DNA from: Streptococcus mitis subsp. hohhotensis
GTDB taxonomy: Bacteria > Bacillota > Bacilli > Lactobacillales > Streptococcaceae
Reading direction: 5' to 3'
Assembly (NCBI RefSeq): GCF_000722775.1
Contig: NZ_JPFZ01000009.1
Location: 496,001 to 560,000 of the forward strand
Length of the DNA stretch: 64,000 bases
Part shown: positions 20,377 through 30,606 of the stretch, one piece after another
Layout: every line of letters starts with the position of its first letter
Position numbering within the stretch: the stretch's first letter is position 1
Notes under the pieces: generated by a model
The model's database searches: none
The model's input: the letters and a program-made list of their open reading frames with translations, nothing else
What the model was told of the DNA's origin: nothing
Translations under genes and position numbers: made by a program

Positions 20377-20419
20377 ATGGCCTATTTGAAATGGCAAGAA
20401 TGAGTTCTTTTAAACGTAA

Positions 20420-20522
20420 TACTCTTCGAAAATCAAATTCAAACTGCGTCAACGTCGCCTTGCCGTACTCAAGTACAGCCTGCGGCTAGTTTCCTAGTTT
20501 GCTTTTTGATTTTCATTGAGTA
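20420..20522 (+). repeat. BOX element, boxA-boxC form
   Basis: 103 bp, ends TACTCTTCGAAAATC and GATTTTCATTGAGTA, with CGTCGCCTTGCCGTA (boxA) and CTGCGGCTAGTTTCCTAG (boxC); no boxB. It is almost identical to the copy at 24361. Confidence 0.9.
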
Positions 20523-20534
20523 TAAGATAAAAAC

Positions 20535-24210: not shown

Positions 24211-24360
24211 GGAATTTACTATTACTCCTTTTTTAGGTGGGCTATTAATTATCACTACTATCAAAGTTTAAGTAAATAATTTCAAAATCAGAAAGGGATT
24301 GCTTGCGCAGTTCCTTTTTAATTTAACAGGAGTGGAATCATAGCGTTTCTAAATTGTTAA

Positions 24361-24463
24361 TACTCTTCGAAAATCAAATTCAAACCACGTCAACGTCGCC
24401 TTGTCGTACTCAAGTACAGCCTGCGGCTAGTTTCCTAGTTTGCTCTTTGATTTTCATTGAGTA
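24361..24463 (+). repeat. BOX element, boxA-boxC form
   Basis: 103 bp, TACTCTTCGAAAATC to GATTTTCATTGAGTA, nearly identical to 20420-20522 and lacking boxB. The 320 bp to its right up to the next repeat contain no gene or clear signal. Confidence 0.9.
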
Positions 24464-24787
24464 TAATAATTCAAAACTGATTGTGATAGGACTATTCTAG
24501 CTTTAGAATACTTTAAAAATTAAAATTTAAGGCAATCAATAGCTTAGAATAGTGCGAAAACATTTAGTTTATAGGAATTCTAGGTCTAGAATTACATGGA
24601 TATTCATGAAGTTAGGGTATTCGATAGTTAGGATTGTTCTATTCTGAAAGATTTAAGCTGTCAATTGTATAGGAGAGTAGTTTGACAATGAATTTTGTTG
24701 AAAGATTCCTTGTTTTATGGTAGTCTAAAGTAAAAGAAAGCCCTACCATTATATTTGTATCTTTAATCTGACTTGGTTTATGTCTAG

Positions 24788-24945
24788 GAGTCTGGGACAA
24801 AAAGATTTTGATTTTAGGAACTCTTTATTATAATTTTTTAAAATCGATAGATTAGACAAAAAGGCGAACAAAACAGAATTCTGAATGTCAGATAACTCGT
24901 TTTGTTCGCTTTTTGTATTTAAGGTTAAACTTTTGTCCCAGCCTC
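24788..24945. repeat. Fold-back repeat with GGGACAAAA ends
   Basis: A 158 bp element whose ends, GAGTCTGGGACAAAA and TTTTGTCCCAGCCTC, are inverted copies differing at one base. Internally AAAAAGGCGAACAAAACAGA and CTCGTTTTGTTCGCTTTTT form a second stem. It looks like a non-autonomous mobile repeat; similar ends recur in mitis-group genomes from memory. It lies just before the bacteriocin-type cassette and could end dha transcription. Confidence 0.65.
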
Positions 24946-24975
24946 ATTTTTTTGGTTTATTTTACTATAATAATG

Positions 24976-25004
24976 TTGACAACGCTTTCAAATCATGTTA
25001 TTAT
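24976..25004 (+). promoter_or_regulatory. Strong promoter of the bacteriocin-type cassette with cre
   Basis: TTGACA (24976-24981), 17-base spacer, TATTAT (24999-25004). On the minus strand, bases 24991-24977 read TTGAAAGCGTTGTCA, a full match to WTGNAANCGNWNNCW, overlapping the -35 and spacer, so CcpA repression in glucose is predicted. Confidence 0.82.
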
Positions 25005-25034
25005 TAAAGCATAAAATAAAAAGTAAAAAAAGCT

Positions 25035-25157
25035 ATGAAAAGAGAAATCTTATTAGCTATAAGTTTGTTGTCTTTGATATTAACCGTCTCGGTAATAAGT
25101 CACTTTCCTGCTAAAAATCAGGGCTTTGATTCAGGACTTGTGTTTGTTGCTAAGTAA
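25035..25157 (+). CDS. Candidate 40-residue secreted peptide
   Basis: Encodes a 40-residue peptide: a short basic start (MKRE), a hydrophobic stretch (about residues 5-21, LLAISLLSLILTVSV) like a signal or leader segment, then a short tail HFPAKNQGFDSGLVFVAK. It begins about 25 bases after the expected transcription start of the strong promoter at 24976 and ends 40 bp before a bacteriocin-associated membrane protein gene. No good ribosome site precedes the ATG, which lowers confidence. The context suggests a bacteriocin, pheromone or translocated peptide; the sequence is not a recognisable lactococcin 972 precursor. Confidence 0.45.
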   Translation: MKREILLAISLLSLILTVSVISHFPAKNQGFDSGLVFVAK

Positions 25158-25197
25158 AAATGGTTTGAATAGTTTAATTAAGAAAGGAGTCTAGGAT

Positions 25198-27396
25198 ATG
25201 AGTTACAACAACATTTTTCTAGGAAAATTAAAATACCTAGCCCTGTTTTTGGTTGCTGTTCAGAGTATATTATTTGCTCTGACAGCAATTTTTTTTACAG
25301 GTGTATCTTATCAAGAAACATGGCAGCACTACAACCAGAATAATCGAACTATAACGCTGTACCTTCAAAAGCTAAGTCCAATTCAGCAAGAAAAAGCGTT
25401 TTATTATTTAAATGAGAGAAGTGATTTAGCCGTTTGGACTCATCGAGTCATTCAAGATTCTAAAGGCAATGGTATACAAAAACATTATATAGATGCCATG
25501 GGAAATTCTGATTATTTTTCTGATTTTAACTATCACCATTCAAATATTTTAACTAAGTCACAGCTAAAAGTCTTACTAGAGCATGAGGATAGTAAGAAAA
25601 CGATAGGAATTGCTGAGGCGTCTCATGATACACTTTATGAGCTACCGAGGCCTTTATTTACTGTTCCGATTGTTATTGATCGATTAGAGCAAGTTTATCA
25701 AAAAACCAATACTTTAACGGGAATCTATCATGTAAATGGTTTAGAATCAGAAACAGACAAAAGTGAATTTATCAAACAGTTTGCGAGTGCCACAGACTTA
25801 TCAGAGGAAAATTTTCTACAGGAAAAATTTGGTAGTCGTCGTGATTATGGTCTAGTTCCTTTTGTTCTCATAGGTTTGCTGTTATTCACAATGTTAACGC
25901 TGTTAATATTATTGCTTGTAATTGTTCTTCAGGCCTATGAAAAATTTGGTAGTCTCACCCTACTGGGATGGAGTCGAAATGAATTTTGGTTAGCATTATT
26001 TAAACCTATTATTTATCCATCGGTTCTTAGCACACCTATATTAGCTGTAGGCATTTGGTGGTTGACAGGCTGGTCCCAAGTTTCATACTATATTTTGATA
26101 CCTATCATGGGCCATATAGTATTTTCAATGTTTGCCTTAGCTACTATTCTCATTATTCCTAGTTTGATAGTTTATTCAGTGACTGCTTTGTCTACTATTC
26201 ACAAACGTTTTCCAAGTAGACTATTGACTATTTTAGGTATTAGTTCCTACATTGCGTTAAGCAGTATCTTAATTGCTACCAGTTATTCTCTAGATGGTCC
26301 TTTGTACCGTTTTATGGATAATGTCCATATTGCTAGGGCGTGGAAAAGTGTTGAGAATATGCAAGTAATTGATTCTTTTTCTGAAGGCGATGACTTGGGA
26401 ACACTGGCAGGTACGAGTAATACATTAGAATTAAGTATGTATCATCTTTATACAAAAATAGGTCATGATGAAGGTGTCTATTTAATTCATAGTCAATACT
26501 ACGGACAAGATTTTTTGGCGAACGTGACTGCTTATCAGAATCTACCTAGTAAACCATTTTGGTATCTAGTTTATTCTTATAATTATTTAACTGAACTAGG
26601 TTTTCAGTTTTCTGAAGAAGAATTAAATGAGATACGAAGTGGTAGCAGATTGTATCTGATTCCAGATAGTTATACAACTGAGGAGCAGCAACGTATGCGA
26701 GCATATTTAGAAGAAAGTGTCAAAGTCTATGATGGGGATGTGGAGACACCATTTACACAAAATCGTCAATTCATTTATAAAAGCTATTCCACAACTAAAG
26801 ATATTTTCCTTTGGTCCACAAATTTACAACAAGGGGTAACTAGTAAGGAGCCGATTATTTTTGTAGCTAGTCCTGAAAATCTTTATTTTAAGGAGAGTGC
26901 GAATCTTGTTGTTTCGGGTTTCAATGGTTATCTCAAAATACGTAATCAGAATATTCTGACTCGTGTGAAGGAAGAGATAACGACTCATTTTCCAGATCTT
27001 ATGGATAACGATATTCAATTTACACCAGTTAGGCGATATATTGATGGACGCCAGAAAGAGTTGAGTTATACTTTTTATTTATTTGGTAGCCTTATATTAG
27101 CTGTATTGATTAGCTTAACTTCAATACTGATTGCTTTGGTATTGATGTATCGAATTACTTATCAAGATCGGTTAATAGTGCAATACTTCTTAGGATTTGG
27201 TTTATGGGCACGTTATAAAGGAATTATGATTTTGGTGATTGTTTCTGCTATTATAGAGGTACTAATTAGTTTCTTATTGAAAACAAAATTGGGTATAGTG
27301 TCCGCCGCTTTATCTCTATGTTTGCAGTCAGTTCTTCTATATGGTTTTCTTTTACGGAAAGAACAGCAGAAAATCTTAAATATATTTAAGGAGTAA
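25198..27396 (+). CDS. Bacteriocin-associated integral membrane protein (DUF1430/7TM type)
   Basis: A 732-residue membrane protein of the family annotated as bacteriocin-associated putative immunity protein. Topology resembles an ABC permease of the MacB/FtsX sort: one N-terminal segment (about 13-35), an outside domain, four segments between about 220 and 365, a second large outside domain, and two or three segments from about 620 to 710. AAAGGAG lies nine bases before ATG 25198. The ABC ATPase gene starts four bases after its stop. In lactococcin 972-type loci this pair is thought to export or give immunity to a small peptide. Function here is inferred from family and context. Confidence 0.8.
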   Translation: MSYNNIFLGKLKYLALFLVAVQSILFALTAIFFTGVSYQETWQHYNQNNRTITLYLQKLSPIQQEKAFYYLNERSDLAVWTHRVIQDSKGNGIQKHYIDAMGNSDYFSDFNYHHSNILTKSQLKVLLEHEDSKKTIGIAEASHDTLYELPRPLFTVPIVIDRLEQVYQKTNTLTGIYHVNGLESETDKSEFIKQFASATDLSEENFLQEKFGSRRDYGLVPFVLIGLLLFTMLTLLILLLVIVLQAYEKFGSLTLLGWSRNEFWLALFKPIIYPSVLSTPILAVGIWWLTGWSQVSYYILIPIMGHIVFSMFALATILIIPSLIVYSVTALSTIHKRFPSRLLTILGISSYIALSSILIATSYSLDGPLYRFMDNVHIARAWKSVENMQVIDSFSEGDDLGTLAGTSNTLELSMYHLYTKIGHDEGVYLIHSQYYGQDFLANVTAYQNLPSKPFWYLVYSYNYLTELGFQFSEEELNEIRSGSRLYLIPDSYTTEEQQRMRAYLEESVKVYDGDVETPFTQNRQFIYKSYSTTKDIFLWSTNLQQGVTSKEPIIFVASPENLYFKESANLVVSGFNGYLKIRNQNILTRVKEEITTHFPDLMDNDIQFTPVRRYIDGRQKELSYTFYLFGSLILAVLISLTSILIALVLMYRITYQDRLIVQYFLGFGLWARYKGIMILVIVSAIIEVLISFLLKTKLGIVSAALSLCLQSVLLYGFLLRKEQQKILNIFKE

Positions 27397-27400
27397 GAAT

Positions 27401-28060
27401 ATGCCAACTATTTCAGTCAGACAGTTATCGAAATATTACGGTACAAAACGTGTTATTGAGAATATTTCATTTGATATTTCGGATAGAGAATTTGTTGCGT
27501 TGATTGGTCCATCCGGTTCAGGAAAATCTACGTTACTCAACCTTATTGGCTTATTAGAAACTGTTGATGAGGGAACAATCACGATTGATGGTGAGATTCT
27601 ACCACAAGTTAACTCTAAAAAGGCAACCCATCTCCGTCGAAATGTATTAAATTACTTGTTTCAATCTAATGCCCTGATTCCAAATGAAAGTGTTGGTGAT
27701 AATTTGATGCTAGCACTTCATTACACTAATTTAACTAAGGAAGAAAAAGATAAAAAAATAAAGACAGTTTTATCAAAAGTTCACATGGAATCTTTCTTGG
27801 AGAGTCGTATTAATGAGTTATCAGGTGGAGAACAGCAGCGAATTGCTATCGCTCGTGCTATTCTAAAGCCAGGAGAGTTGATTCTAGCAGATGAGCCAAC
27901 TGGCTCCTTGGATCCACAAATGGCTCAAACAGCCTTTGAATTACTGAAACTGCTACGTGATGAGTACGGGAAAACGATTATTTTGGTGACGCATAATATG
28001 TATCAGGCTCAGCAATGTGATAGAATTATTGACTTAGAACGCTTAAAAGATTTGCACTGA
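27401..28060 (+). CDS. ABC transporter ATPase, lactococcin 972 group
   Basis: A 219-residue ATPase with Walker A GPSGSGKST (about residues 38-46), signature LSGGEQQR, Walker B LILADEPTGSLD and the H-loop VTHN. It is of the LolD/MacB type that works with FtsX-like permeases, here the 732-residue protein just upstream, and matches the putative bacteriocin export ATPase group. GGAG precedes ATG 27401. Last gene of the cassette. Confidence 0.88.
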   Translation: MPTISVRQLSKYYGTKRVIENISFDISDREFVALIGPSGSGKSTLLNLIGLLETVDEGTITIDGEILPQVNSKKATHLRRNVLNYLFQSNALIPNESVGDNLMLALHYTNLTKEEKDKKIKTVLSKVHMESFLESRINELSGGEQQRIAIARAILKPGELILADEPTGSLDPQMAQTAFELLKLLRDEYGKTIILVTHNMYQAQQCDRIIDLERLKDLH

Positions 28061-28561
28061 CACGTGTTGCTACATAGATTGCTCATTGTTAGGAAATATT
28101 CATGAAAAAATTAATTATTATTGCATTGTGAAATCAGAAGGTATCATACTTTACAAAATTATTCCAAAAAACAGTGTATCAAATTAATTGATGATTGAAG
28201 AGTTTTCTAAAAATAAAACTGCTTATAATCTGTGGGTTTTCTCTTTTTAGTGAATATATAAAATGTGGAGAATTAAGACATATATGAGCTAAATGCTTGG
28301 CTTACGTTTATAAAAATACAGTAACTCTCCTTAGATATGGCATTTATTGGGAGAGCTTTACATTTTATACAACTACTTTCCTAAAGTATAAAAGCTAATA
28401 AACTAGGATGTGTTGACTTTATGGAGATTAGTATTTTATTTGTATTAACCGATTATTGTGGTGCAGGATAGTAATAAATGATTGTAAGATATTTATATTT
28501 TTGTTTCGCAGGAAGTCTAGTGTTTAATTATCTATAATTTATAGAAGAAGTTGGTGAGAAA
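28061..28561. other. AT-rich 500 bp gap, no gene recognised
   Basis: Very AT-rich. A nine-codon start (28102-28131, MKKLIIIAL then stop, with AGGAAA upstream) looks like the first codons of a lost lipoprotein or peptide gene. TATAAT at 28533-28538 may be the -10 for the next gene, but no good -35 accompanies it. I see no terminator after the ABC gene. Confidence 0.4.
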
Positions 28562-30373
28562 ATGAAGTCAAAAGTAATCAATTTATATACATATATGGAA
28601 GCTTATAAAGACGATGAAGTTTTTGAAAATTACAAATATATAAACAACATTGAAAGTATGCAGGAACAGGAATACGCTGATGTTAACGAAATTGCTTCTC
28701 ATATATTTAATAATATAGAGCGTCAAGCAGGGGTTGAAACAAAGAAATTATCTGGATATTATTTGGATAAAAAAGTTGAAATAGGATTTCGAGAACAATT
28801 TGATTTATTGAGGTTTTCAAATGACAGTATATTGAATATTGAATTGAAGAGTGAGAGAATTCCAGATGAAGAAATTAAAGATCAATTAATAAGGCATAAG
28901 TTTGTATTAGGCTGTGTAGATACTGAGAAAGAAATTTATACATTCACATACGTAAGTGAAACAAAAGAGTTGTTTACAATTTCAAATGAAAGTTTGACAA
29001 AAGTAACAATAGATATTTTATGTAATTTAATATCTCTAGACTATCTTGAAAACAATTTGCTGGACGATTTAGATGCTGACAGTCTTATTGTATCTCCATA
29101 CTCAGATATTAAAAGATTCATTGATCATAGGTATTTTTTAAATAGTGAGCAAAAGAAAATAGTACAGGATATTTTATCAACTGCTAAGAAAGTGAGCATG
29201 ATTAAAGGAGGAGCTGGAACTGGTAAAACACTTGTATTATTTGACTTAGCTGATAAATTAACTAAGCTAGGAAGTAAAGTATTGTTAATATTTTGTTCAA
29301 TTCTAGAAAACCCCATTGAAATTGATAATCAAGTAGATTTTAAATTTATACATATTAAACAATTACAAAGTCTGACCATAGAGAATTTTGATTACATATT
29401 GCTTGATGAGTCTCAACGATTATACGAAGAAAACTACAATAGGGTTATAGAGAGTCCTGCTAAATTAATTTTTTGTGTAGATAAAGCTCAAACTTTAAAG
29501 TATGAAGAGAATAGTTTAAATGTAGAACAAAAATTGGAAAATATAGTAGGTGTACAGAAATTTGATTTAAAGGAAAAAGTTAGAACGGACGAGTCGCTTT
29601 CGACTTTTATTTTAAAATTGTTCGAAAAAGATCGTAATGGTTTACAGCCTATAGAATTTCCAAAAGTAAATGCTGTATATTTTGATAGCGTGACTAGAGC
29701 TCGATACTTTATTGAAGTAATGGAACGAGATGAAAATTATGAATCAATAGAAGTTGCCTCCTATAAAACTAAGGCCACTGGGACAACTTATAATGAAAAG
29801 ATTAAATCAGATTCTAAAGATGGCTTCACGGTCATTGGACGAGAATATGAAAATGTGATTATACCAATTGATGATAGGACGATCTATATTGAAAATAAAC
29901 TAGTATTTAGGCCGACAGGATTCTACTATCCATATTTGGGAACAAATGGTATTTTTCAAGCCATTACAAGAGTAAAGAAACATTTACTTTTCGTGGTGAT
30001 AAAAAACAAAGAAATTTATACAGAAATTCAAGAATTGATTAATTGGGAGAAACGACGAAATCTGAGAAGAATTAGTAATAGGATCAAGTTATTGAGAGAA
30101 ACAAATAACTCTCAGTTTAGTGATGTAGCCAAAGTTTGTAAGTGTCTTGAATCAACTTACAAAAATATAGAGGAAACAGGGAAGTTTCCAAACAATAAGA
30201 TATTGAAAAGATTGTCCAATTTTTATAATGTAAGTAGTAATTTTTTAATTGGAGAACCAATTGAATTATCAATGACTGAATTTGATATAGTGTATCAGAA
30301 GAAAATCAAAGGTATGAACAAAGAACAAATAGTAGAGTTAAATGAGTCTTTAATTAATTTTCTTAACGATTAA
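28562..30373 (+). CDS. Predicted nuclease-helicase-HTH fusion, candidate defence protein
   Basis: A 603-residue multidomain protein I cannot assign to a named system. Residues about 60-115 look like a PD-(D/E)xK nuclease core: FD (80-81), IELK (93-96), and a following Q108. Residues about 190-485 are a P-loop ATPase/helicase-like domain of the DUF2075/superfamily 1 type: Walker A GGAGTGKT (216-223), Walker B LLDESQ (280-285), IFCVDKAQ (303-310), REYENVIIP (427-435) and QAITRVKKHLLFVV (466-479). Residues about 505-565 resemble an XRE helix-turn-helix (SNRIKLLRETNNSQFSDVAK, then NVSSNFLIGE). By eye it is much more AT-rich than its neighbours and stands alone in an accessory island, suggesting transfer. 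Domain calls come from motifs; defence role is inference. TTGGTGAG is a poor ribosome site. Confidence 0.7.
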   Translation: MKSKVINLYTYMEAYKDDEVFENYKYINNIESMQEQEYADVNEIASHIFNNIERQAGVETKKLSGYYLDKKVEIGFREQFDLLRFSNDSILNIELKSERIPDEEIKDQLIRHKFVLGCVDTEKEIYTFTYVSETKELFTISNESLTKVTIDILCNLISLDYLENNLLDDLDADSLIVSPYSDIKRFIDHRYFLNSEQKKIVQDILSTAKKVSMIKGGAGTGKTLVLFDLADKLTKLGSKVLLIFCSILENPIEIDNQVDFKFIHIKQLQSLTIENFDYILLDESQRLYEENYNRVIESPAKLIFCVDKAQTLKYEENSLNVEQKLENIVGVQKFDLKEKVRTDESLSTFILKLFEKDRNGLQPIEFPKVNAVYFDSVTRARYFIEVMERDENYESIEVASYKTKATGTTYNEKIKSDSKDGFTVIGREYENVIIPIDDRTIYIENKLVFRPTGFYYPYLGTNGIFQAITRVKKHLLFVVIKNKEIYTEIQELINWEKRRNLRRISNRIKLLRETNNSQFSDVAKVCKCLESTYKNIEETGKFPNNKILKRLSNFYNVSSNFLIGEPIELSMTEFDIVYQKKIKGMNKEQIVELNESLINFLND

Positions 30374-30606
30374 ATAATATGGTGTAAAATAAGTGTTGTG
30401 ATAAGATGAATTTATGGAAAATATTACTGAGCAACAAGAAGATAATTTAAGATTCTGTCAATCAACCTGTTAGAGATGCCAACTTAGATATTTTTATTTT
30501 GCATAATTTAACCCTATTTCATTTTTCATTACTTTTGTTGGACAACTAAATTACGTTATTCAAATAGTTTAACAACATATACCAACTAGAAAGGAAAATT
30601 CTCAAA

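Follow-up and report, generated by a model that had tools for sequence, protein, structure and literature searches.

An Nhi/AbiO-family nuclease-helicase with a repressor-like helix-turn-helix domain fused to its C-terminus in a variable streptococcal locus

The 64,000-nt stretch of streptococcal DNA analysed here, which we call the window, encodes a protein that belongs to Nhi/AbiO, a family of single-protein anti-phage systems, in a variant that is fused to a C-terminal helix-turn-helix (HTH) domain. The catalytic residues of the family are conserved in its 603-residue product, the fusion is retained in related strains, and the gene sits in a swap site at which other streptococci hold different genes. 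Judged from its sequence, the window protein is very probably anti-phage, and we hold with good confidence that it is an HTH-fused Nhi-type enzyme working in the manner proposed below. The core is already known, and it is the HTH fusion that is unusual in this branch. Its presence indicates that a known defence enzyme captured a domain resembling an immunity repressor, which was then kept in Streptococcus and Lactococcus lineages, and such a fusion gives a direct handle on the restraint or aiming of single-gene defence enzymes. A narrow literature search, from 2021 onwards, returned no published description of an Nhi-HTH fusion. A parallel in print is Vibrio parahaemolyticus VP0395, described as a putative Nhi that has HTH domains (PMC10734457), which resembles the window protein by that description only. 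The gene and its parts are as follows.

28562..30373, + strand: nhi-like gene for the 603-aa nuclease-helicase-HTH protein (ORF with ATG start; PADLOC Nhi and AbiO profiles)
28562..29131, + strand: N-terminal region with a PD-(D/E)xK-type nuclease pattern, residues 1-190 (E37, D81, E94, K96, Q108; conservation in aligned sequences)
29138..30046, + strand: Schlafen-g3/SF1-like helicase region, residues 193-495 (Walker A 216-223, Walker B 282-283, R341, R470; Pfam and conservation)
30071..30256, + strand: CI/RstR/XRE-like helix-turn-helix, residues 504-565 (RstR and HTH_19 matches below cut-off; pVF21 counterpart)
30257..30370, + strand: C-terminal tail, residues 566-603 (aligned with the tail of stand-alone repressors; a dimerisation role is presumed)

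The identity of the core is provided by two PADLOC profiles. Residues 4-494 cover positions 2-470 of the 470 in the Nhi profile PDLC02372 (E 5.8e-116, 386 bits), and residues 4-493 cover positions 2-467 of the 468 in the AbiO profile PDLC02350 (E 1.6e-111, 371 bits). Because both profiles match end to end, the core belongs to the named family Nhi/AbiO, and the suggestion of the first-pass annotation that this combination is not a named system falls away. Other parts of that reading stand: the gene is of a defence family, and the profiles, conserved residues and domain matches agree on a nuclease pattern, a helicase and an HTH in one protein at a swap site. Under the Nhi model the window protein (386 bits) scores close to its relative on the Lactococcus lactis plasmid pVF21 (388 bits) and lower than those at two other plasmid loci, L065 (460.5 bits) and L067 (458.7 bits). 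Sequence searches of the PDB gave weak matches alone, nearly all to P-loop proteins or, in one search, to HTH proteins. The gene is AT-rich, as the annotation had remarked, with a GC content of 0.28-0.30 against approximately 0.40-0.45 downstream and 0.33-0.35 in the neighbouring cassette.

The motifs FD (80-81), IELK (93-96), Q108, Walker A (GGAGTGKT, 216-223) and Walker B (around D282/E283) are all found at the positions first assigned to them, and their conservation was followed in an alignment of 28 sequences made up of the window protein, the pVF21 relative (53% identity) and 26 others that are 25-38% identical to the window protein. One further locus with a core identical to that of the window (L002) was removed ahead of the residue count. 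In the N-terminal part, E37, F80, D81, E94 and K96 occur in 28 of 28 sequences and Q108 in 27, an E...D...ExK...Q order which we take to be the PD-(D/E)xK pattern. A second alignment (A2) shows these residues as well. Pfam nuclease models have no match to residues 1-190, so the assignment of a putative nuclease is based on this pattern and its conservation. In the helicase part, Pfam SLFN-g3_helicase matches residues 209-417 (E 8.9e-12); K222, D282, E283 and R341 are again invariant, and R470 is present in 27 sequences with a gap in the remaining one. Since the nuclease and helicase motifs are kept in 27 or 28 of the 28 sequences, they are not chance occurrences, and by this comparison the residues needed for Nhi-type action are kept in the window protein.

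Nhi (nuclease-helicase immunity; SERP2475 in Staphylococcus epidermidis) likewise holds nuclease and helicase in one protein, which according to the literature breaks down the replication intermediates of phages (PMC10732053, PMC11084316, PMC11811056). By analogy with these descriptions, the helicase/ATPase part of the window protein would load on phage replication intermediates, i.e., DNA carrying phage SSB, and the N-terminal PD-(D/E)xK-type nuclease would degrade that phage DNA so that phage replication stops. The repressor-like C-terminal domain would most likely dimerise the protein and/or tether it to DNA, and the likeliest benefit of carrying it would be control over the protein's own dose. 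Alternatively, and overlapping with this explanation, the protein may cause an abortive infection of the AbiO type, a tentative reading within the same family in which the enzyme, when triggered, hits both host and phage nucleic acid, the infected cell is killed or arrested, and the HTH silences the enzyme before infection. The AbiO model is nearly as good a fit, approximately 15 bits below Nhi, and the closest relative of the window protein is lactococcal, as is AbiO itself. However, the Nhi model does score slightly higher, and Nhi is described as non-abortive (PMC11811056). The two profiles do not separate Nhi from AbiO for the window protein, and sequence cannot decide between them.

What distinguishes the window protein from both is the repressor-like unit of about 105 residues (approximately 499-603), which is CI/RstR-like and lies beyond the end of the PADLOC Nhi model and also past that of AbiO, both families being represented in these comparisons by their profiles. 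With the whole protein as query, HTH_19 matches residues 506-561 at E 0.08 and RstR matches residues 504-590 at E 1.8e-7. The isolated domain improves on this, although both models stay below their curated cut-offs (HTH_19, E 0.0012, 19.2 bits against 30.2; RstR, E 2.4e-9, 37.4 bits against 80). Stand-alone streptococcal XRE-type ORFs, most of them 109-134 aa long, align with the domain, most over approximately 100 residues and with the C-terminal tail included (phmmer E 1.4e-12 to 5.2e-8 in a small set, 1.2e-8 at best across the genus genomes). The XRE-like HTH that had been placed at about 505-565 is thus supported, though diverged. Unlike the stand-alone phage/ICE-type XRE (CI/RstR-like) repressors, the window domain is fused to Nhi and has lost the LTQ and W positions, which seven stand-alone relatives have in common and which the alignment shows to be absent from the pVF21 domain as well. 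Because the HTH falls below the curated cut-offs and lacks LTQ and W, its binding to DNA is uncertain; the HTH scaffold has probably been kept while the DNA contacts changed. For the self-regulation through the HTH that the first-pass annotation had suggested, a search for an operator upstream of nhi gave weak dyads at most and nothing convincing in common with the region upstream of the pVF21 gene. A promoter/terminator scan gave 6 promoter-like sites, fewer than the 17 in shuffles, and is therefore uninformative.

The kinship with repressors allows for a more specific role. It is conceivable, although we would not expect it, that the enzyme is a targeted Nhi, in which a phage/ICE-type repressor, captured whole, has given a sequence-blind nuclease-helicase a target, recruiting it to specific operators of incoming elements or holding it inactive on them, or in which a phage antirepressor releases it by acting on the repressor domain. 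A related and unlikely reading is that of immunity directed at elements, in which the C-terminal domain, derived from a phage or ICE repressor, binds the operators of particular elements and steers the nuclease-helicase to them. The tail-inclusive alignment with repressor-like ORFs favours this, as does the fact that the HTH query's matches among phage records, weak and confined to 3 of 50,697, include one annotated repressor protein, but the residues common to the seven stand-alone proteins are not kept and no operator is known.

Full-length relatives of the window protein are rare. They occur in 3 of 284 genus genomes, namely the window's own, Streptococcus sp. LQJ-218 (G219) and S. mitis 1001175st1_H6 (G095), while in 57 other matching genus genomes the match is confined to the HTH or the P-loop region. 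At E <= 1e-10 the core query matches 5 of 335 family genomes and 5 of 398 phylum genomes, with the window's own included in each count. A search of the order with the PADLOC family at E <= 0.001 gives matches in 246 of 295 genomes and in 4 of 14 controls, mostly to the P-loop region alone, and E 1e-60 or better is reached in just 9 genomes of the order. The core also matches 81 of 72,556 plasmid records, with at least 80% of the query covered in 32 of them, as well as 4 of 50,697 phage records, and it has relatives on viral contigs; two single-protein viral scans returned one copy of an already known contig and nothing further.

Within this spread the fused HTH belongs to one branch. Apart from pVF21, none of the 28 other relatives that could be read to the C-terminus (13 distant and 15 viral loci) has a C-terminal HTH. 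Of 16 distant loci, 14 reach the C-terminal end, counting the annotated pVF21 ORF, and have tails of 3-65 aa without an HTH, while the tails of the 15 distinct viral loci with a complete C-terminus are 0-7 aa long. The viral set includes two near-identical loci (L123 and L140) and leaves out one cut off by its contig (L134), two that are split (L125, L132) and three that encode other helicases (L126-L128). The HTH query matches 2 of 72,556 plasmid records at E <= 1e-3 in a tblastn search that could miss diverged HTHs, and pVF21 alone of these also matches the core. A general rule that places an HTH next to Nhi genes is not supported by the 38 loci scanned within their available flanks, where, pVF21 (L129) aside, only L069 (a separate ORF about 0.9 kb away) and L132 (a separate 398-aa ORF) have one.

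The closest relative, on pVF21, consists of a helicase (WP_014017771.1) with a core 53% identical to that of the window and, directly 3' of it, an HTH ORF (WP_172684743.1) that is 49% identical over 103 residues. Here the two parts are annotated as separate ORFs, divided at the point where the linear record of this circular plasmid artificially begins. As the apparent stop between core and HTH sits at that record start, and the record ends have an 18-nt duplicate in common, the stop may either reflect a true split or have arisen from the way the record was made. The window, LQJ-218 and pVF21 sequences form one clade (100/100 in a tree of 29 rows), and between window and pVF21 the HTH and the core look similarly constrained (dN/dS approximately 0.20 and 0.22, respectively, from one pair with saturated dS). 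From the single clade, the 49% identity of the HTH and its similar dN/dS, the domain seems to have moved along with this Nhi branch and to have been retained in it. It could instead be a functionless relic, or the product of accidental read-through into a repressor gene lying downstream, as the two pVF21 ORFs might suggest. We find this improbable: besides the placement of the pVF21 stop and the constraint on the domain, the ORF is continuous in LQJ-218, which differs from the window gene at 3 codons, and, from residue 26 onwards, in S. mitis 1001175st1_H6.

In the H6 strain, nhi is split over two contigs near residue 25 (the start of L003 and the end of L004). The sequence at each of the two contig ends is foreign, a 19-bp inverted repeat is common to both, and one of them encodes what resembles the start of a transposase; an IS, presumably one of the IS5/IS1381-like type, has therefore probably inserted into the gene.

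The surroundings of the gene are described by the following features.

24791..30586, no strand: variable hotspot, from the dha operon to the HAD gene (contents of 18 loci from other genomes)
28410..30586, no strand: DNA segment that accompanies nhi (blastn of 28 loci against the window)
25198..28060, + strand: lactococcin-972-type cassette, a neighbour outside the system (TIGR01654, TIGR03608)
25198-27396, + strand: 732-aa bacteriocin-associated membrane protein of the cassette (TIGR01654 E 1.6e-12, below the curated cut-off)
27401-28060, + strand: ABC ATPase of the cassette (TIGR03608 E 6.1e-71, below the curated cut-off)

The left edge of the nhi segment is set by the end of the cassette match in L113 and L114, and the right edge by the start of the conserved HAD flank. 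The setting of the gene was described correctly at first, with a bacteriocin-type cassette on its left and conserved genes, HAD among them, on its right. Of the 284 genus genomes, 249 have a match to HAD, and the stretch upstream of it was examined for 20 of these, near the top of the match list; two of these loci bear nhi (L105, and L102, which is cut short by its contig), and 18 come from other Streptococcus genomes. In half of the 18 a membrane-protein cassette precedes HAD (L093, L095, L096, L097, L098, L100, L104, L107 and L108, the last with unread bases), accompanied in L098 by a peptide read as having a GG-type leader. Two loci have a pair of 333-aa and 65-aa proteins at this point, and two (L106 and L111) have a GmrSD-type restriction gene with a 192-aa partner, for which GmrSD_N was measured in L111 (E 1.3e-32) and L106 was grouped with it by sequence. 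Single loci contain two membrane proteins or, by eye, ABC exporter-like genes with a TetR-like gene, and three contain 76-176 bp only. The dha operon is missing too in L106, L109, L110 and L111. The expected exchange of genes at the dha-HAD boundary is thus what the 18 loci display, and among streptococci close to that of the window this interval is a hotspot in which defence genes and bacteriocin-type genes are found. Since the cassette occurs without nhi and the contents of the hotspot differ between loci, nhi is, by its distribution, an accessory gene in its own right that occupies a swap site. A confinement of the family to fixed housekeeping loci was also considered, and it is ruled out by the variable hotspot, the 3 of 284 full-length carriers and the relatives on plasmids and viral contigs. 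No tRNA is present in the 64,000-nt window.

The 333-aa protein of the hotspot (L103:6442-7440), whose 65-aa partner is cysteine-rich, has no Pfam, NCBIfam or PADLOC match at the thresholds used and is a candidate for an unknown defence or competition gene. Related segments of approximately 109 bp (20417-20525 and 24358-24466), perhaps a small repeat of the RUP/BOX type, lie on either side of the dha operon and match one another across loci at approximately 96-97%; the operon between them is absent in L106, L109, L110 and L111.

By NCBIfam the cassette is nearest to the lactococcin-972 export/immunity type, below the cut-offs. Matches to its ABC gene of at least 88% over nearly the whole length are found in 7 of 284 genus genomes, three of them nhi-bearing. 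In the other four the cassette lies at loci that lack nhi (L113-L116), with an identity of 98% for G104 and G159, 93% for G083 and 87% for G196. That nhi serves to regulate or maintain the cassette or a plasmid, rather than acting in defence, is very hard to credit: the two adjoin in the window, and a bacteriocin-immunity gene or enterocin 96 is near nhi on pVF21 (L064) and pE1123 (L067) as well, but the core belongs to a defence family, the genomes behind L113-L116 hold the cassette with no full-length nhi relative, and no bacteriocin gene lies within 4 kb of nhi, by an incomplete gene table, in two of four plasmid loci (L065 and L066, on pLS06-1-a and Lentilactobacillus kefiri p1). The genes next to nhi are not the same in the window as at the four plasmid loci, which points to a single-gene system.

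The cassette itself differs between strains. In LQJ-218 it includes a segment of approximately 515 bp with an ORF for a 98-aa lactococcin-972-like peptide (L002:4333-4626; TIGR01653 E 6.7e-4, below the cut-off), and this segment is missing at window positions 25197-25209. The 13-bp overlap at the window junction suggests that the window cassette lost its peptide gene by deletion between direct repeats, with the membrane and ABC genes left behind. An extra segment of similar length is present in L113, L114, L115 and L117, and a shorter one in L116.
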